Positions 1,965 through 49,757 of a stretch of DNA of 64,000 nucleotides are shown here, piece after piece. Numbering within the stretch: position 1 is the first letter of the stretch; every line of letters begins with the position of its first letter. Location of the stretch: the NCBI GenBank assembly GCA_016868035.1, contig VGID01000001.1, positions 1 to 64,000 on the forward strand, read 5' to 3'. A program made the translations under genes and the position numbers. The DNA comes from Betaproteobacteria bacterium. Its GTDB lineage: Bacteria; Pseudomonadota; Gammaproteobacteria; Burkholderiales; SG8-41. The notes below the pieces were generated by a model. The model was given only the letters and a program-made list of their open reading frames with translations, did not search any database and was not told the DNA's origin.

Positions 1965-4061
1965 TCAGGCCGTGGCGTCCGCAGGCTGCCCCTCGGCCCG
2001 GTGCGCCTTCCACCACGCCGCGGCCGCCCGCTGGGTCCACGTATGCTCGACCGATAGTGCCTCGAGCAGCGCCAGCGCGACCAGCACGTCGTGAGGTCGC
2101 TCCGTGCGCTCCTTGGCAAGGCAGCGCGCGATCAGGTCATCGAGCCGGCGGGGGACTCCCGGCACGAGCTCGGATGCGCGCCGCGCCGGCGTGTGCAGGA
2201 TGCGATAGGTGAGGTCGTGCTCGGTGGTCGTGTCGAACAGGCTCTGTCCGGTGAGCAGGAAGAACCCCACGGCCCCCACCGAGTAAATATCGGCGCGCGC
2301 GTCGGCGTCCCCGGGATTGCGCACGCGTTCCGGCGACATGTAGAGGGGGGTGCCGACCACCCGCTGGAACTGGGTGATGTCGCGCGACTGGCCTCCGGCG
2401 ACGTCCTTCACCAGCCCGAAATCGAGGATCTTGGCGACGTCGTATTCGCCGCCGCGCTGGCACAGCATGATGTTGTGGGGCTTGATGTCGCGATGGATAA
2501 GCCCGCGCCCATGCGCTTCCCGCAGCGCGGCGCACACCTGCCGCAGGACGTGAACCGTGCGCTCGACCGGCATGGGGCCGTGTACATCCACCAGCCGGTC
2601 GAGGGTCTCGCCCTCCAGGTACTCCATCACGTAATAGAACACGCCCTCGCGCGTGCGCCCGTAATCGTAGATCTCGATCGTGTTGGGGTGGACCAGCTGG
2701 CTCGCGAGCTGCACTTCACGCTCGAAGCGCGCGACGATCTCGTCGGATGCAAGGTGCGGCTTGAGCATCTTCAACGCGGTCGGGCGCTTGAGCAGCTCGT
2801 GGCGGGCGAGGAAGACCTTGGACATGCCGCCTTCCCCGATCTGCCTCTCGATCCGGTACTGGCCGATGACGCGCTCCTCGCCGACCTCGCGCTTCAGGCG
2901 CCGCACATTCCATGCCGACCACAGCACGGCGCCGACGGCGGCGAGGAGCAGGGACAGGATGATGGCGAAGGCGAGGTTGAGATAGACGAGGGGCGCATAG
3001 GCCTCCTTCGCGGTGAGCTCGATCGTGAGCCCCATGTCGTAGTCGGGCAGCCACCGCCACGCGCCCACCACCTCGACGCCCCGGTAGTTGCGGTAGGGCT
3101 CGACCAGGACCCCGTGGCGTTCCTCGGCGTTCGCCTTGCCGCGGCTCGCCACCGCCAGCGCGGCAAGCCGCGTGAGCGGCAGAGCCGCCCATTCCATCGC
3201 CGGCTTGTGGCCGGCCGCGAGGTCCCCGCCGGGATCGCGCACGTGCACGCGCAGCATCGCGCTCGCGCCCGACGCGTCCGGAATCAGCCCGATTTTCCGC
3301 AGATCCTGGACGAACCGGCTCTCGGACAGCATCAATCCATTCTCGTCGAACGCATAGGCCTCGCCCGTCTTGCCGGGCCGCGCGACGTTCAGGATGTTGG
3401 CAAACTCACCCTCGGCGGGATACGCGAAGCCCAGCGCGGCGACGATCTCTCCGCGCTCGTTGGCGACCGGCGCCTTGAACCAGACCACAGGCCGTCCGAA
3501 GGCGCCGGCGCGGGCACCCTCGACGCGATCCTGCTCGCGGAAGGGGCGCACAAACTGGGGCCTGCCCGCGAACACCTCGTAGAGTTGCGCGAGAAAATTG
3601 CCCGGATTGACCCTGCGGCCCGAGTACTCGCGGAACTGCGTTCCCACGATCCGCCCGCCGGTGTCCACCACGTTGAATGCGACCGCCCCCGCACCCTGCT
3701 GCACGGGCCCGAGCATTTCGGCGAGCGCCGCGCGCGCCGGTGACATCCACAGCGCCTCGCCGGACACGCCCTCGCGTCGCCCGAGCGCCGCGAGTTCTCC
3801 TGCGAGACGCCGCACGCGCGCGTCACCGGCCCAGTGCTCGACGTGCGCCTTGCGGTTCTCGACCCACAGATGCAGAGCGTTGATCTCCGCATCGAGCACC
3901 GTCTGCAAGCCCGCGGCACGGATCTCGCGCAGCGAGCCCGCCACGCCGGTGTAGGCCCAGGCGCCGAGCACGATGAGGCTCGCCGCGGCGGCGAGCGCGA
4001 TCGTGTTCAGCCGCGTGTTCGCCGCGATGATGCGCCGCGCAAGCTGCTCGACGCGGTCCAT
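1965..4061 (-). CDS. Membrane Ser/Thr protein kinase with extracytoplasmic sensor domain
   Basis: With the ATG at 4061 the protein has 698 residues. An N-terminal transmembrane helix (about residues 20-42) is followed by a periplasmic region of roughly 310 residues. A second helix ('LAFAIILSLLLAAVGAVLW') leads into a complete Hanks-type kinase domain. The kinase shows the glycine loop GEGGMSKV, the ATP lysine in ALKMLK, the catalytic HRDIKPHN, the DFG magnesium motif and GTPLYMSPE in the activation segment. The periplasmic part looks like a Cache-type ligand sensor (regular 'GYIVGT', 'AYAFDENGLML', 'DYDMGLTIEL' blocks), as in chemoreceptors. It probably transmits an external small-molecule signal to cytoplasmic phosphorylation. 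The frame stays open upstream to 4277; 4061 is preferred for its AGGTGG and topology. Confidence 0.88.
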   Translation of the reverse strand: MDRVEQLARRIIAANTRLNTIALAAAASLIVLGAWAYTGVAGSLREIRAAGLQTVLDAEINALHLWVENRKAHVEHWAGDARVRRLAGELAALGRREGVSGEALWMSPARAALAEMLGPVQQGAGAVAFNVVDTGGRIVGTQFREYSGRRVNPGNFLAQLYEVFAGRPQFVRPFREQDRVEGARAGAFGRPVVWFKAPVANERGEIVAALGFAYPAEGEFANILNVARPGKTGEAYAFDENGLMLSESRFVQDLRKIGLIPDASGASAMLRVHVRDPGGDLAAGHKPAMEWAALPLTRLAALAVASRGKANAEERHGVLVEPYRNYRGVEVVGAWRWLPDYDMGLTIELTAKEAYAPLVYLNLAFAIILSLLLAAVGAVLWSAWNVRRLKREVGEERVIGQYRIERQIGEGGMSKVFLARHELLKRPTALKMLKPHLASDEIVARFEREVQLASQLVHPNTIEIYDYGRTREGVFYYVMEYLEGETLDRLVDVHGPMPVERTVHVLRQVCAALREAHGRGLIHRDIKPHNIMLCQRGGEYDVAKILDFGLVKDVAGGQSRDITQFQRVVGTPLYMSPERVRNPGDADARADIYSVGAVGFFLLTGQSLFDTTTEHDLTYRILHTPARRASELVPGVPRRLDDLIARCLAKERTERPHDVLVALALLEALSVEHTWTQRAAAAWWKAHRAEGQPADATA

Positions 4062-4453
4062 GCCACCTGCCGGCACGCTCGCGTCCCCGCCGGGGCCGGG
4101 CGCCGGCTTTCCCTGCGTGATCTTCGTCACGGTGAGGAGGATGATACCCGACCCGGAAATCTCGTTCGCGCCGGCGCCTGCGCGGCGGGGTCGGGGGCAA
4201 CGCGCGCTCGTGTCGGGCGCCGCCCGGCTCGCGCGCGGGATGCAACGGGGAAGCGGGGAAAAGAAAAGGCCGCGCAAGTTGCTGCGCGGCCAAAGTCCCT
4301 TCCATGAGGAGGAGGAGGGATGAGCGTCAGTATATGCCCGCGCACCGGTCGCGGCCCGTGATTTTTTCTACAGCAGGCCTTTAAATTTTTTTCAGCCGGC
4401 GCCGGGCGATCTTCCGCCTTGCGCGAGCGGAACCCGTTTTCCGGCCTGGAATC
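4062..4453. other. Gene-free stretch between kinase and LysR gene
   Basis: About 390 bases. It contains a minus-strand intrinsic terminator (4255-4291) and a short AT-rich block at 4360-4392. No convincing gene is seen. The kinase frame remains open up to 4277, so part of this stretch could be coding if an upstream start is used. Confidence 0.5.
4255..4291 (-). terminator. Rho-independent terminator after the LysR gene
   Basis: A perfect 9-bp stem (4268-4276 with 4283-4291) has a six-base loop. On the minus strand it is followed by a T-rich run (TTTTCTTTTCCCC). Position and orientation suit termination of the LysR-type gene whose stop is at 4454. Confidence 0.7.
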
Positions 4454-5392
4454 TCACTTGCTGCCCTTCGGGAGGATCTTCAGTCGCTCGCTCGTCGTCC
4501 GCGCTTGGTGCAGCAGCCACTCGCGGAACACGGCCACCTCCTCGTGCTCCGCAATGGTTTCAGGACAGACCAGGCTGTACGAGGAAGTAAGCGACATGAC
4601 GGGCCCGAACGGGCACACCAGCTGTCCCTTCGCGAGCGCGTCGGCGACCAGCAGCGTGCGGCTGAGCCCTACGCCGAGCCCCTCAAGGACCGCCCGGTGC
4701 ATGAGGTGCCTCGGGCTGAAGCTCATCAGCCGCTTGCTCGTGATGTGCGGCACGCCGGCCGCCTGCAACCAGATCTGCCAGCCGGGGTTCGGACCACCGA
4801 CGTAGAGATCGTCGCTGCTCTCGAGCAGCGTGTGGTGACGCAGGTCCGCTGGCGCGCGCAGGGGGGTCCGCCCCTTGAGGAGCTTCGGGCTGCAGATCGG
4901 GAAGAGGTCGTTGCCCTCGAGCGGGTCGAAGCGGTACCCCGGCTGCGGTTCCTGCCCGTGCCAGATCGCGACATCGAACTGGCCCGCCTGGAAATCCACG
5001 AGCTCGCGCGTGGCGCCGACCACGATCGCGATGTCCGGATAGGCCTCCGCGAAGCCTCCGATCCGCGGCACCAGCCACAGCGAGGCCAAGCTCGGCATGA
5101 CCGAGACCCTCAGGATGCGCTGTCCCCTGGCGGCCTTCAGCGTCGTCGAGGCCCGCGCCATGCGCGTGAGGCCTTCCGACACTTCCTGCAGGTAGATCCG
5201 GCCCTCGGGTGTCAGGGCGACGTGTTTGTTCTTCCGGCGCAGCAGCGCGACGCCAAGATGGTCCTCCAGCAGCCGGATCTGGTGGCTCACCGCGGAGGGC
5301 GTGACGCTGAGCTCGTCGGCGGCCCGGCTGAAGCTCAACAGCCGGCCCACGGTCGCGAACGCGCGTATCGCGTTGAGCGGAAGCACGCGCAT
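4454..5392 (-). CDS. LysR-type transcriptional regulator, GcvA-like
   Basis: A 312-residue LTTR. The N-terminal winged helix-turn-helix (about residues 5-64: 'LNAIRAFATVGRLLSFSRAA', 'VTPSAVSHQIRLLE') is typical, including the SxAA and SAVSxQI helices. The effector domain (about 92-300) keeps the GcvA-type blocks 'RVSVMPSLASLWLVPR', 'FDVAIWHG' and 'GLGVGLSR'. GcvA-like regulators control amino-acid, beta-lactamase or catabolic genes, but no divergent target gene is adjacent: the tRNA/repeat region lies upstream. A perfect 7-5-7 dyad at 5431-5449 just upstream of the start is a likely autoregulatory site. Target and ligand are unknown. Confidence 0.93.
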   Translation of the reverse strand: MRVLPLNAIRAFATVGRLLSFSRAADELSVTPSAVSHQIRLLEDHLGVALLRRKNKHVALTPEGRIYLQEVSEGLTRMARASTTLKAARGQRILRVSVMPSLASLWLVPRIGGFAEAYPDIAIVVGATRELVDFQAGQFDVAIWHGQEPQPGYRFDPLEGNDLFPICSPKLLKGRTPLRAPADLRHHTLLESSDDLYVGGPNPGWQIWLQAAGVPHITSKRLMSFSPRHLMHRAVLEGLGVGLSRTLLVADALAKGQLVCPFGPVMSLTSSYSLVCPETIAEHEEVAVFREWLLHQARTTSERLKILPKGSK

Positions 5393-33391: not shown

Positions 33392-34717
33392 ATGCCTGCC
33401 AGCAAGAAACCTGCGCGATCCGAGTCCGTCGCGACCGCGCTGCTTCCGGTTTCCATCCAGCCCGGTAACATTCGCTACGCGCCCGGCGTGCGCGCGGGAC
33501 GCTGGGTGTTCGCCACCGGGCACAAGGGCACGGCCGATTTCGTGAGCGGCATGGCCCCCGAGGTGATCGACGGGGCCGCGCCGCGCCATGGCATGCCGAA
33601 GCACAAGAAGGAGGCGCGGCGTATCTTCGCCAACCTCGCGAAGGTGCTCAAGGCTGGCGGTACGGACCGCAAGCACGTCGTGCGGGTCGACCAGTACTAC
33701 ACCGGCGGGCAGGTCGTTCCCGCCTACCACGAAGTGCGGCGCGAATTCTTCGCTGGCCACGTTCCGCCCAGCACTTCGAATCTGCACCAGCGATTCCTGC
33801 TCGCCGGGCAGGACATGGAGGTGCAGTTAATGGCCGCGGTGCCGGCCAAGGGCTTCGAGGCCATGCAGCACCGCCCGAAGAATCTGCCGGTGCACGCGAC
33901 CTCCGCTTACAGCCCCGTTCTTACCTGCGGCGACTACGTGTTCGTCGCCGGTCAGACCGCGGAGGCGCTCAAGACCGAGGAAGGGCCGATTGATCCCGCG
34001 GCGCGCATGCCGGCCGGGCATCTGTGGAAGGGCACGCCGATCAAGCTCGAAACCGAGTTCGTGCTCGAGCGAAAATTGAAGCCGGCGCTCGCCACCGTCG
34101 GCAACACCCTCGCCGGGGTGGTGAAGGCGCAGATCTATCTGCGCGACGTGGACGACATCCCGGCGTTCAACGAGGTATGGACGAAGCACTTTCCGAAGGC
34201 GCCGCCCGCCACCACCATCATCACCACCGCCACGCCCGGCTTCATCTGCGAGGCCAGCCGCATCGAGATCAACACGATCAGCCTGCACCACGGCGGCCGC
34301 ACGCAGAAAGAGGTGATCGATGCCGGCGTAGCGACGGCGTATGCGGGCCAGGTGCAGGCGGTCCGCGCCGGCGACCTGTTGTTCCTGTCGGGCTTGATGG
34401 CGGTGGGCCCGGGTGGCGCCCTTGCCTCCACAGCGCGCATCGACCCGCGCCAGCCGCAATTCGGAAGCGCCGTGCAGCTGCAGATGGATCACATGCTCAC
34501 CCAGGCGCAGCGCATCTGCCGCAAGGCCGGCACTTCACTCGGCAACGTGGTTCGTGCGCAGCAGTTTCATACGAGTCTTGCCGACTTCAACGGCGCCTGG
34601 CAGGTCTGGCAGCAGCACCTGCCAGGCCAATACCTGCCGTTCTCGGCGATCGAAGTGCCCGCGCTCGGGGTGCCGGGCGCCGTCGTGATGCTGGATCTCT
34701 GGGTGTACGTCCCCTAG
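33392..34717 (+). CDS. Triple RidA/YjgF-domain protein
   Basis: A 441-residue protein with three consecutive RidA-fold domains, roughly residues 18-148, 158-300 and 308-441. Each has a 'D(Y/L)VFVAGQ'-like strand, an ARRIF/LERKLKPAL/MLTQAQRI-type helix and a VVRVDQYY/VVKAQIYL/VVRAQQFH-type strand. RidA proteins are about 130 residues and act as trimers, so this chain may form a pseudo-trimer by itself. The deaminase arginine (R105 in RidA) is replaced in all three domains (PPSTSNL, PPATTII, LPFSAIE), which argues against classical 2-aminoacrylate deamination. It precedes a Bug receptor and a single-domain RidA protein. Confidence 0.87.
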   Translation: MPASKKPARSESVATALLPVSIQPGNIRYAPGVRAGRWVFATGHKGTADFVSGMAPEVIDGAAPRHGMPKHKKEARRIFANLAKVLKAGGTDRKHVVRVDQYYTGGQVVPAYHEVRREFFAGHVPPSTSNLHQRFLLAGQDMEVQLMAAVPAKGFEAMQHRPKNLPVHATSAYSPVLTCGDYVFVAGQTAEALKTEEGPIDPAARMPAGHLWKGTPIKLETEFVLERKLKPALATVGNTLAGVVKAQIYLRDVDDIPAFNEVWTKHFPKAPPATTIITTATPGFICEASRIEINTISLHHGGRTQKEVIDAGVATAYAGQVQAVRAGDLLFLSGLMAVGPGGALASTARIDPRQPQFGSAVQLQMDHMLTQAQRICRKAGTSLGNVVRAQQFHTSLADFNGAWQVWQQHLPGQYLPFSAIEVPALGVPGAVVMLDLWVYVP

Positions 34718-34814
34718 CCGCTGGTCGCGCCCGCGGCCGCGAGCGTACAGCGATTATCCGAACCCGCAATCGTCCTGAAAAAAACCACGCAACCTTCGAC
34801 ATGAAAGGAAGACC

Positions 34815-35831
34815 ATGAAGCCCACATCGCTCGCCTGCGATCATTTTTCTGGCCGTGTTTCGAGGGCGCTGCGCGCCTTCGGCGTCGCTGCGCTGGCGGC
34901 GCCCATTTTGACATCGGCGCAGGTGCCGGACGCCGACAAGTATCCGACACAACCCGTGCGCTTCATCGTGCCCTACACGGCGGGCGGGGGCACGGACGTC
35001 ATCACGCGGCTTGTCGCGAAACACATGGCCGACGCCTGGAATGTGCCGGTGATCGTGGAGAATCGCGTCGGCGCCGGCGGCGTCATCGGCTCGCAATACG
35101 TGACCACACAGAAGCCGGATGGCCGCACGTTTCTCGCCGTCGCCAGCGCGTTTGGAGTGCGTTCCGCGATCGACCGCACCGTCCCGTACGACGCGTCCAG
35201 GGATTTCTCCGGCGTCGGGCAGATGGCGATATCGCCGAGTTTCATGGTCGTGTCCACCACGCACGGCTTCAAGTCGCTAAGGGACCTGATCGCGCATGCG
35301 AAAGCGCAGCCCGCGGGCGTGTTCTACAGCACGGCCGGTGTCGGCAGCACTGCGCACCTGCATGCGGCGACGGTGGCGCACCTTGCGGGCATCAAGGCCG
35401 AGCATTCGCCGCAGCGGGGCACGCCGGAAGCAGTTACCGAGGCGATGACGGCCCGCGTGCTCTACGCATTCGCGCCGGGGCCGAACGCGATTCCACTCGC
35501 GAAGGCGGGCAAGCTGCAGATCCTGGTGACGACTTCCCCGGCGGGCGCGCGCCTCATGCCGGGCGTGCAGACGATTGCGCAGGCGGGACTCAATTACGAA
35601 GGTGACGACTGGTTCGGCGTTCTTGCGCCCGCCGGCACGCCGCTCGCGATCCGCGAGCGCGTGTCGAAGGAGATGGCACGCATCCTCGCGCTGCCGGAGC
35701 TTCGAGAGCGGCTGGCGACGCTCGGCGGGGAGCCTGTGTCGAGCGGACCTGCCGAGTTCGAGACGATGGTGCGGGAGTACGTCGCACGCACGCGCAAGTT
35801 CGCCGACACCATCGGCATGAAAGTGGAATGA
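34815..35831 (+). CDS. Bug-family periplasmic receptor
   Basis: A 338-residue receptor with a long N-terminal export region (hydrophobic part 'AFGVAALAAPILTSAQV'). The ligand loop is VPYTAGGGTDV, followed by 'VENRVGAGGVIGSQYV'. The third block reads 'FYSTAGVGSTAHLHA', and 'EHSPQRGTPEAVTEAM' replaces the usual PYKG element, so the ligand may differ from the other Bug proteins here. It lies 97 bases after the triple-RidA gene and overlaps the next RidA gene by four bases (ATGA), forming one operon. Confidence 0.93.
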   Translation: MKPTSLACDHFSGRVSRALRAFGVAALAAPILTSAQVPDADKYPTQPVRFIVPYTAGGGTDVITRLVAKHMADAWNVPVIVENRVGAGGVIGSQYVTTQKPDGRTFLAVASAFGVRSAIDRTVPYDASRDFSGVGQMAISPSFMVVSTTHGFKSLRDLIAHAKAQPAGVFYSTAGVGSTAHLHAATVAHLAGIKAEHSPQRGTPEAVTEAMTARVLYAFAPGPNAIPLAKAGKLQILVTTSPAGARLMPGVQTIAQAGLNYEGDDWFGVLAPAGTPLAIRERVSKEMARILALPELRERLATLGGEPVSSGPAEFETMVREYVARTRKFADTIGMKVE

Positions 35832-36319
35832 GCCTAATGGGAACGATCGAAACGCGCCTGAATAAGATGGGCTACGAGCTGCCGCCGCCGTTCGTATTCC
35901 CGAAAAACAACCGCACCGGCTGCACCCAGGCCGGCACGCTGCTCCTGTTGTCCGGGCACGGGCTCGACCTGCCGAAACTGCCCAACGTGCGGCAGACCGG
36001 AAAGTTCGGCGTGGACATCACGGTGGAGGAAGGCTACGCCACCGCGCGCGCAGTGGCCCTCACCATGATGGCGACGATCAAGGCGCATTGCGGAGACCTT
36101 GATCGTGTAAGGCGCGTGCTGCGCCTGTTCGGGATGTGCAACTGCACGTCGGACTTCGCCCAGCACCCGCAGGTCATCGATGGCGCCTCTGACTTGTTCT
36201 TCGAGCTCTGGGGCGCCGAGCACGGGAAGCACGCCCGCTCGGCGGTGGGGCATGTATCGCTTCCGCGCGGGATCGCGGTGGAGATAAACGGCGAGTTCGA
36301 GCTACACGCGTCCGGATAA
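35828..36319 (+). CDS. RidA-family protein
   Basis: A 163-residue single-domain RidA-like protein translationally coupled to the Bug receptor (ATGA overlap at 35828-35831). The core has 'TLLLLSGHGLD', 'EEGYATARAVALTMMATIKA', 'VRRVLRLFGMCNC' and the C-terminal 'HARSAVGHVSLPRGIAVEI', which retains an arginine at the position used for substrate carboxylate binding. It likely handles an enamine/imine or related reactive intermediate from the compound imported by the receptor (inference). Confidence 0.9.
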   Translation: MSLMGTIETRLNKMGYELPPPFVFPKNNRTGCTQAGTLLLLSGHGLDLPKLPNVRQTGKFGVDITVEEGYATARAVALTMMATIKAHCGDLDRVRRVLRLFGMCNCTSDFAQHPQVIDGASDLFFELWGAEHGKHARSAVGHVSLPRGIAVEINGEFELHASG

Positions 36320-36432
36320 ACGCGTGAGCGAAGCGGATGTGAGTTTTCCGGGGGCGGAAGTCATGCTTCAAGAGTATCGGAGCTGGTTGCTTTCTCGCAC
36401 CCTTCTTCCTCGGAAGACGATGATCGAAGAAA

Positions 36433-36457
36433 GAGGCCAGGTTCGATAGTTCCTGGC
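36433..36457. terminator. Hairpin between convergent RidA and OsmC-like genes
   Basis: Stem GGCCAGG/CCTGGCC with about ten bases in the loop. On the minus strand it is followed by TCTTTCTTC, so it could be the terminator of the OsmC-like gene; on the plus strand it lacks a T run. Confidence 0.4.
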
Positions 36458-36552
36458 CTTGGTTAGCCGATGCCGAGCAGGCAGTGCACGCTTGCCGGAC
36501 GGCGGGCCCGGCCCCTTTTTCCGCTGGCCCCTTTCCCGCCGCAGCGCGCGAT

Positions 36553-37113
36553 TTACTTTTCCGTTACACCCTCGAGTCGAAACGGCTTCCCGTTCACTTC
36601 GATGTGGCTGTGCAGCGGCACCTGCTGCGTGATCAGGCCCTCCGCGAAGCACCCGGCCTTGGCGTTCTTGATCAGGTGGGCGAGCTTTTCCGCGGGCTCG
36701 TCGCTCTCGACGCTGAGATACGTGTTGACGCCCTCCCAGCGGTTGAATACCGTGCCCTTGAGCACCGAGCCGCCCAGATGCTTGCGCAGGACGACGCGGC
36801 AGTCCGCGCCGCTCACCTTCATCTTCATCATGTGCGCGTACCGCGCAACCTGGGTGAGCAGTCAGAAGCCGATCGCCATCGCGAGATAGCTCATCGGCGA
36901 CGGATATCTGTCCGTGCCGCCGATGCGCGCGGGCTCGTCGCAGAACACCTCGAACTTGCCCGCGACACCGCGCTTGAGCTGCATCTCGCCCGAGACGATC
37001 TCGGTGTGCACGTCGTTCTCGTTGGTGATGCCCTGCGCGGGCAGCTCGGGCCTGTCGATCACGCGCTCGCCCGGCTTATCCGAAAAATCTTCGTTTCCCA
37101 GTGGTTTTGGCAT
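36553..37113 (-). CDS. OsmC-family selenoprotein (in-frame TGA = Sec84)
   Basis: Read through one in-frame TGA (36862-36864) the gene encodes 186 residues of an OsmC/Ohr-type thiol peroxidase. N-terminal half: MPKPLGNEDFSDKPGERV to 'YPSPMSYLAMAIGF'. C-terminal half: LLTQVARYAHMMKMKV to 'NAKAGCFAEGLI' and 'VPLHSHIEVNGKPF'. OsmC proteins reduce organic hydroperoxides with two redox-active Cys; the TGA sits at the first (residue 84) and Cys155 is the second. Downstream of the TGA a 5-bp stem with loop GGTAC begins its loop 19 nt after the codon, like a bacterial SECIS. The frame is otherwise intact, with GGAGGAG before the start. Sec insertion is inferred; SelA/B/C/D are outside the window. Confidence 0.85.
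36833..36847 (-). promoter_or_regulatory. Candidate bacterial SECIS hairpin for OsmC-like gene
   Basis: On the minus strand TGCGC-GGTAC-GCGCA folds as a 5-bp perfect stem with a five-base loop starting GGU. The loop begins 19 nt after the TGA. In E. coli fdhF the loop also starts with GGU and lies about 18 nt after its UGA. Confidence 0.7.
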
Positions 37114-37445
37114 CGATTCTCCTCCATAAGTGACGGCGCGACGCCGTCCATTTCATGAGACCGGCGGGATCGTCGAATCTTACACGGCGTGCGCGCGGCG
37201 TTGAAAGCTCGAAGTGCGGGGGCCGTTGGCCCGGGCCCTGACCGGGGCAAGTCCTTTCACGTGCGATCTCTACGCGCTGTTCCGGGTTCATGACCCAGGG
37301 TCGGGGCATTGGCGGATCAACAAGCCACTCGGAACTTTGAACTTCGAATCAGACTCCCATTAATTCCATTACCGCGGCAGCGCTCGATCGTCCGCCATCA
37401 GCCGCAGGCCGTCGCTCATGACAATAACTCGAGGAGGCAATTTGC
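37114..37445. other. Gene-free divergent region
   Basis: About 330 bases between the OsmC-like gene and the dienelactone hydrolase. It contains a degenerate heptad-like stretch around 37324-37345 (ACTTTGAACTTCGAATC) but no gene. Promoters for both neighbours are expected. Confidence 0.45.
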
Positions 37446-38438: not shown

Positions 38439-38563
38439 CAACCAAAGAGAAGGGCGCCCCGGTTCGCCGCCGCTACCTCGTGAACGCGTAGCGGTCCCCT
38501 GCGCTGCTCGGCGGCTCGCAGGAGCCCCCAAAGACCGTCACTGCGTCACCAGGTTTGAGCTAC

Positions 38564-38598
38564 TTTCGCCTTTCGCCTTTCGCCTTTCGACTTTCGCC
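38564..38598. repeat. Heptad repeat TTTCGCC, 5 units
   Basis: Units TTTCGCC x3, TTTCGAC, TTTCGCC. Same unit type as the arms at 48857-48994 and 47710-47793. Confidence 0.88.
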
Positions 38599-38648
38599 TT
38601 GCTTCTCTGGCTGCTCGGCGGCTCTCAGGGGCCCCGAGAAACCGCGCA

Positions 38649-49097: not shown

Positions 49098-49757
49098 ATG
49101 TCACTGCAAGAAAAGCTGAACGCGCACAAGGCCAGATCCGCGGGTAACCGGCCGCCTGAAATTCGCGAAGCCCTCGAGCGGGGGACCGCCGAGCTGCGCG
49201 CCTCCGGCATCATGGAGCGCGTGCTCAAACCGGGCGCGCGCGCGCCGCAATTTACGCTGCCCAATCAAAACGGCGCGATGGTGAGCTCGGCGGACCTGCT
49301 CGGGCGCGGCCCGCTCGTGTTGAGCTTTTACCGCGGCCACTGGTGACCGTACTGCAATCTGGAGCTGGAGGCTCTACAGGCAGCAACACCGGACTTCACG
49401 GCTGCCGGCGCGACGCTCGTCGCGATTTCACCGCAACGCTCCGAGTTCCTGCGGCAGATGATCGAGAAGCACAAGATCACGTTCGACATCCTGGGCGACG
49501 CGGGCAACCAGGTCGCCGCGCAATTCGGGCTCAAGTTCAAGTTATCGGACGCGGTCAGGAAGGTCTATCAGGAAACATTCAAGCTCGACATCGAGAAATT
49601 CAATGGCGATGCGTCATGGACGCTCCCGATGCCGGGACGGTTCATTGTCGACCGGGGCGGCGTAATCCGTTACGCGCAGGCCGATCCGGACTACACGACA
49701 AGGCCGGAACCGGACGAGACGCTGCAAGCGTTGCGCGCGTTGCCCGGAGGAAATTGA
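49098..49757 (+). CDS. Peroxiredoxin-like selenoprotein (in-frame TGA = Sec83)
   Basis: Reading through TGA 49344-49346 gives 219 residues of an AhpC/TSA-type peroxiredoxin-like protein. The N-terminal half ends 'LVLSFYRGHW'; after the TGA comes PYCNLELEALQ and a full thioredoxin-fold remainder ('LVAISPQRSEFLRQMIEKHK', 'FDILGDAGNQVAAQFGL', 'TLPMPGRFIVDRGGVIRYAQ'). The family motif is WCPYCNxEL, so the TGA replaces the peroxidatic Cys and leaves a UxxC pair (Sec83, Cys86). A hairpin with loop TGGAG begins 19 nt after the TGA. The start has AGGAG upstream. It probably reduces peroxides with selenocysteine. An NfeD-like gene follows seven bases later. Confidence 0.88.
49360..49376 (+). promoter_or_regulatory. 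Candidate bacterial SECIS hairpin for peroxiredoxin-like gene
   Basis: GAGC (49362-49365) pairs with GCTC (49371-49374); G49361-T49375 and T49360-A49376 extend the stem to six pairs. The five-base loop TGGAG has a G at its second position and starts 19 nt after the TGA, the same distance as in the OsmC-like gene. Confidence 0.6.

Follow-up and report, generated by a model that had tools for sequence, protein, structure and literature searches.

The locus described here raises a simple question: does a TGA codon within an OsmC-like gene mark a broken gene, or does it encode selenocysteine (Sec)? The gene (36553..37113, minus strand) lies in a window of 64,000 nucleotides, the whole stretch of betaproteobacterial DNA that we analysed. 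Read from 37113 to 36553, it forms a single frame of 186 codons followed by a stop, with one internal TGA (36862..36864, read 36864..36862) at residue 84. An earlier note on this DNA had proposed two collinear OsmC halves in one frame, separated by a single TGA at residue 84, with a second Cys kept at residue 155. Translation with TGA read as U confirms these points and places the gene on the minus strand, which the note had left unstated. Under table 11 the same frame splits into ORFs of 83 aa and 92 aa, the pair of broken ORFs that the note expected of a conventional annotation. A Shine-Dalgarno-like GGAGGAG (37119..37125, minus strand), read directly from the sequence, stands 5 nt before the ATG. 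We consider it about 95% probable, on sequence evidence, that the locus encodes one OsmC-fold protein of 186 residues in which UGA84 is decoded as Sec.

The read-through protein matches Pfam OsmC (PF02566) across the TGA, from residue 66 to residue 167 (E 2.8e-11; 44.2 bits against a gathering cut-off of 27.5). It also matches the NCBIfam model NF041052, 'OsmC-related (seleno)protein' (OsmC_like_Se), at 166.5 bits against a curated cut-off of 95, covering profile positions 3-144 of 144; it is a plain member of NF041052, and we found no feature that sets it apart. OsmC-like U-x-x-T selenoproteins were described from the Sargasso Sea in 2005, with 3 Sec sequences (PMC1088965), a table row for the GOS set gives 5 (PMC2398784), and the group is listed in reviews of 2022 (PMC9312934) and 2026 (PMC13188914). 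The first three of these sources bear out the earlier statement that OsmC-like selenoproteins had been reported before. Going by the published descriptions of these small marine sets, the window gene shares with them the OsmC domain, the U-x-x-T motif (here GF-U-LLT, U84-L-L-T87) and a bacterial SECIS element with G in a small apical loop. The family is already known, and the window gene joins it as a new, well-supported member.

Recurrence of the UGA and its Cys counterparts

The TGA is found well beyond this gene. A scan of genome contigs yielded 22 relatives, 18 at 76-88% identity and 4 at 53-54% (three of these four from Nitrospinota). In each of the 22 the aligned codon is TGA, followed three residues later by Thr. 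At order level, 10 of 399 genomes contained a match over the NF041052 cut-off, and each of their 19 matches contains exactly one TGA; it lies at the Sec site in all 17 that were read, the two left unread being partial matches in one genome (G349). Within the taxonomic family, 44 of 74 genomes passed the cut-off; each of their 69 matches, counted from the results table and not individually read, contains exactly one in-frame TGA. No Cys form scored over the cut-off in these 74 genomes; under it lie an open-frame match in G764 (81 bits) and a partial match with TGA in G812. A class-level scan of 369 genomes returned six with a match over the cut-off, namely the window's own genome, with TGA, and five without TGA, the best of which (L087, 140 bits) reads FCLMTH.

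Codon entropy, bSECIS scoring, residue conservation and dN/dS were computed on a non-redundant set of 31 Sec members, from which five rows had been removed as repeat views (L018, L020, L021, L078_b and L081) and outside which stand the divergent paralogues L014, L016 and L017. T87 is invariant in this set, as is Cys155 (codon 36649..36651, minus strand), the candidate resolving Cys. Purifying selection is evident on both sides of the TGA: in 30 comparisons with the window gene, median dN/dS is 0.24 before the TGA and 0.13 after it, and the value after it is at most 0.51 throughout.

Homologues with an open frame offer a Cys where the window gene has its TGA. The earlier note had named this beforehand as one of two points on which its reading could fail, the other being a genome lacking Sec machinery, and the alignment gives Cys at the Sec site in 35 of 36 such homologues, the exception being L096 with Ser. 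Cys155 is matched by Cys in 34 of the 36, with Ser in L096 and L043. These homologues (23 + 13) are the best-scoring loci returned, together with three paralogues from the window's own genome, and so are not a random sample; four of them score 95-99 bits and carry a CQE motif. Cys homologues with the motif FCYMTQ (L024, L026, L029, L033-L036, L038 and L040-L042) sit in long frames (401 to 981 codons), each containing two OsmC-type matches in tandem.

The hairpin downstream of the UGA

The earlier note had also described a 5-bp stem with a GGUAC loop 19 nt after the TGA, and the sequence contains it as claimed: the stem is UGCGC/GCGCA, the loop GGUAC, and the distance from TGA to loop 19 nt. 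The same stretch (36833..36847, minus strand) can alternatively be drawn with six pairs and the triloop GUA (UGCGCG-GUA-CGCGCA), at 20 nt. Folding of the window sequence alone gives the hairpin, with no excess stability over shuffled sequences (z -0.76 and -0.04). A hairpin in a single sequence is weak evidence; conservation lifts this one above chance.

That conservation extends to the choice of synonymous codons. All 31 Sec members have the same codons at 90, 91 and 93 (GCG, CGG and GCG), and 30 of them have TAC at codon 92; elsewhere in these genes CGG is a minority Arg codon (37/215). Over residues 90-93 the codon entropy averages 0.05 bits; for 56 other conserved degenerate columns the mean is 1.11, and 20000 random column sets included no value that low. 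The bSECIS model, as outlined in PMC13188914, has a loop of 3-9 nt, a stem of 4-16 bp, a G within the first two positions of the loop, a distance of 16-37 nt after the UGA and an energy of at most -7.5 kcal/mol. With 6 bp, the G-first triloop GUA, 20 nt and -7.8 kcal/mol, the window hairpin falls within all four constraints. The shape is kept in 31/31 Sec members and the energy, with the hairpin scored alone, is also reached in 23; in the remaining eight the energy is -6.2 to -6.8 kcal/mol. Among 20000 random synonymous codings of the same peptide, 0.175% fit the model. At other codon positions in the same genes 319 of 4251 (7.5%) fit it, so the bSECIS model alone is loose.

Covariation was examined twice. 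In the first 23 sequences the signal was not significant, 124 of 500 shuffles being as good on every measure. Three divergent paralogues missed by the motif search (L014, L016 and L017; 43-47% identical to the window protein) were recovered by tblastn and added with eight others, giving 34 sequences, 27 of them distinct. In this enlarged set three forms of pair 18-32 are seen (UA, GC and CG) and three of pair 19-31 (GC, GU and UA). No shuffle among 500, and no slid control, reaches the observed covariation score, the cells paired or the cells changed on both sides. Counts of changed pairs and of pair types fall within the shuffled range, with 150 and 103 of the 500 shuffles, respectively, being as high. 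A small number of events may account for the compensatory changes, and relatedness among sequences can lift a measure above shuffles where there is no structure. Pair 18-32 is unformed in the three Nitrospinota sequences.

None of the 23 open-frame homologues inspected for it has the GCGCGGUACGCG hairpin at this place. Other hairpins occur at the same place in some Cys homologues (L043, -9.3 kcal/mol; L032, -7.3; L001, -6.3). Searched against Rfam, the entire window gave a single tRNA and no hit to a SECIS family.

Selenocysteine machinery and alternative readings of the UGA

Searching the genome for the Sec machinery, as the earlier note proposed, recovered selA, selB, selD and tRNA-Sec(UCA). 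Contig C4 carries selA (33742-35106; 576.8 bits), adjoined by selB (35207-37087; 458.2 bits), and downstream of both the tRNA-Sec gene (38521-38611), which scores 77.8 bits against the Rfam tRNA-Sec model and is called tRNA-SeC with anticodon tca by ARAGORN. The tRNA was located on locus L044; ARAGORN returned none on L005 and L013, neither of which contains the whole tRNA-Sec. On contig C65 lies selD (3698-4627; 403.7 bits), with an internal TGA of its own in the motif GGGUGCK. Lower-scoring selB-like and tRNA-Sec-like hits are also present in the genome. One ORF stands between selA-selB and tRNA-Sec (L083, G000:C4:32500-39500), and presumably resembles a flavin-dependent reductase; another stands beside selD and its TGA (L084, G000:C65:2000-6000), and we take it to resemble a tRNA 2-selenouridine synthase gene.

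Among the 10 genomes positive at order level, selA scored over its cut-off in nine, the missing one (G144) being 84% complete. It did so as well in four family members lacking the OsmC gene and in 29 of 34 genomes tested, a hand-picked panel of the 10 positive genomes and 24 others. Because selA is common in genomes without the gene, co-occurrence does not discriminate and counts as no more than permissive evidence. Among users of Sec, the OsmC gene is an optional one. None of 10 formate-dehydrogenase-like matches in the genome has an internal TGA.

Other explanations of the TGA must be weighed against Sec decoding. A pseudogene, or a sequencing error that turned a Cys codon into TGA in this assembly, is easily imagined: TGA is one base away from TGC and TGT, the window comes from a draft assembly of 127 contigs, and decayed family members are seen at other loci (L085). 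We nevertheless regard this as extremely improbable, because the TGA recurs in all 22 relatives, which come from other records, each of the 69 family-level matches contains a single TGA, and dN/dS after the TGA remains low in every one of the 30 comparisons. It is also very improbable, if marginally less so, that the locus encodes two separate proteins, the first ending at the TGA and the second beginning at the ATG of residue 95 (36831). Such a split OsmC would agree with the invariance of M95, M96 and K97 in 21 sequences, yet the break would fall within helix 73-95 of the structural model, and eight of the ten residues 85-94, which would go untranslated, are invariant in 21 sequences as well. 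Sec decoding also agrees with the Cys that open-frame homologues carry here and with the conserved hairpin.

UGA can be misread, and an ordinary tRNA (Trp, Arg or Cys) could conceivably read through the codon in place of Sec-tRNA. We give this hardly more credence than a broken gene and no more than a split one, since the genome has complete Sec machinery, the bSECIS-type hairpin is conserved and homologues have Cys at the site. In addition, 6 of the 22 relatives end the gene itself in TGA, which shows that TGA does not act as a sense codon everywhere. Decoding of UGA84 as selenocysteine is the reading we carry forward.

Genomic context, predicted chemistry and spread in the family

We compared the neighbourhoods of the 22 relatives and the window, with ORFs chosen mechanically, and found no gene kept beside the OsmC gene in all loci. 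Tripartite-transporter receptor-like ORFs, which we take to be TctC/Bug-like, have hits in 15 other loci, but these ORFs hit one another throughout. An upstream ORF group, with one ORF of ~410 residues, is common to six betaproteobacterial loci (L056, L061, L068, L070, L071 and L072), and flanking ORFs are common to three Nitrospinota loci. The window has neither shared group, and we therefore draw no function from context.

When the window was scanned for TGA codons with frame on either side that passes a filter on GC by codon position, four candidates emerged. Two look like neighbouring genes in one frame and were set aside: ankyrin repeats followed by an M16 peptidase, and an FMN-dependent dehydrogenase followed by an ORF without Pfam match. 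The others are the OsmC-like gene and a peroxiredoxin-like UxxC gene (49098-49757, plus strand), whose AhpC/TSA domain spans a TGA (49344-49346) in the motif GHW-U-PYC. A GGA-loop hairpin lies 20 nt downstream of that TGA at -6.7 kcal/mol, short of the model's -7.5. The same motif with TGA and identical hairpin letters occur at L058, ~2.8 kb from the OsmC gene of that locus; at L031 the motif, again with TGA, is followed by other letters. No NCBIfam model reached its cut-off with the 49098-49757 protein, which resembles the Prx-like UxxC selenoproteins as described in PMC1088965. It is likely a second selenoprotein in the window.

The AlphaFold2 model of the read-through protein has an OsmC fold (mean pLDDT 82.6; 58-69 over the first 30 residues). 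The best PDB matches in a fold search were OsmC/Ohr/YhfA-type chains: 1lql (Z 14.6), 1ml8 (13.5; presumably E. coli YhfA), 1nye (12.7) and 1n2f (12.1). By sequence, the closest solved structure is the Jannaschia OsmC-like protein 3cje (profile E 3e-12; 23% identity over 93 aligned residues), which has Cys at both sites, with C-x-x-T where the window protein has Sec. The model puts Sec84 within helix 73-95, and Cys155 where helices 141-154 and 156-162 meet; by sequence, both match the homologues' two Cys positions.

SelB decoding at hairpins of this kind is established for bacterial selenoproteins. Here, SelB would bind the hairpin immediately 3' of UGA84 and deliver Sec-tRNA(UCA), made by SelA with selenophosphate from SelD, and UGA84 would be read as selenocysteine. 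Sec84 would then take the reactive (peroxidatic) Cys position of OsmC/Ohr and Cys155 the resolving position. The selenolate may reduce a hydroperoxide or another oxidised small molecule and pass to a selenenic acid, which Cys155 would resolve as an Se-S bond for reduction by a cellular thiol reductant. Given the OsmC fold and the placement of Sec84 and Cys155 at the two Cys positions of homologues, such a selenolate/Cys redox cycle is the most likely function, as judged from sequence and model. An organic hydroperoxide is an even bet as the substrate.

The window protein thus resembles Ohr/OsmC peroxidases in fold and in the positions of the reactive and resolving Cys, and differs in having Sec for the reactive Cys, no acid at the Ohr Glu position and some 30 conserved N-terminal residues that precede the NCBIfam match. 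Xylella Ohr, as described in PMC5962072, has catalytic Glu51, reactive Cys61 and catalytic Arg19. By sequence position, the catalytic Glu has no counterpart among the 31 Sec members, in which position -10 from Sec84 is Met (28) or Leu (3); nor is position -9 acidic in any of them, being S, T, G, A or N. Ohr-like activity is therefore only putative. R17 and R91 are invariant in Sec members, and the model is of low confidence at the N-terminus.

Several copies of the gene are present in 13 of the 44 positive genomes of the taxonomic family, with a maximum of five in G766 and G819. These are draft genomes, with contamination of 7% and 3%, respectively; G131, with four copies, has completeness of 98% and contamination of 1%. 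Paralogue pairs lie on opposite strands ~2 to 2.6 kb apart in G131:C21 (L078), G817:C507 and G822:C37. A decayed OsmC-type selenoprotein gene is seen in G169:C98:8270-10503 (L085), where a paralogue-like start runs into the C-terminal half and the Sec region is missing. We think the chances about equal that in this betaproteobacterial lineage the OsmC-like selenoprotein forms an expanded, Sec-obligate family, with up to five paralogues per genome, a UGA in each match over the cut-off and no reversion to Cys. A search of the OsmC-selenoprotein literature, which was not exhaustive, found no mention of such an expansion in the portions covered.

Gene callers that stop at UGA split this gene. Beyond the small marine sets of the published descriptions, the OsmC-like selenoprotein is now seen in 44 of the 74 genomes examined from one taxonomic family and also in Nitrospinota, and its divergence exposes compensatory changes in the SECIS hairpin. 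It offers a clean target for asking what selenium adds to the OsmC fold. If the family is indeed expanded and Sec-obligate, the OsmC-like selenoprotein would be a main user of the Sec machinery in this lineage, and its selenoenzyme chemistry would not be replaceable by Cys and would be distinct from that of Ohr, operating without the catalytic Glu.
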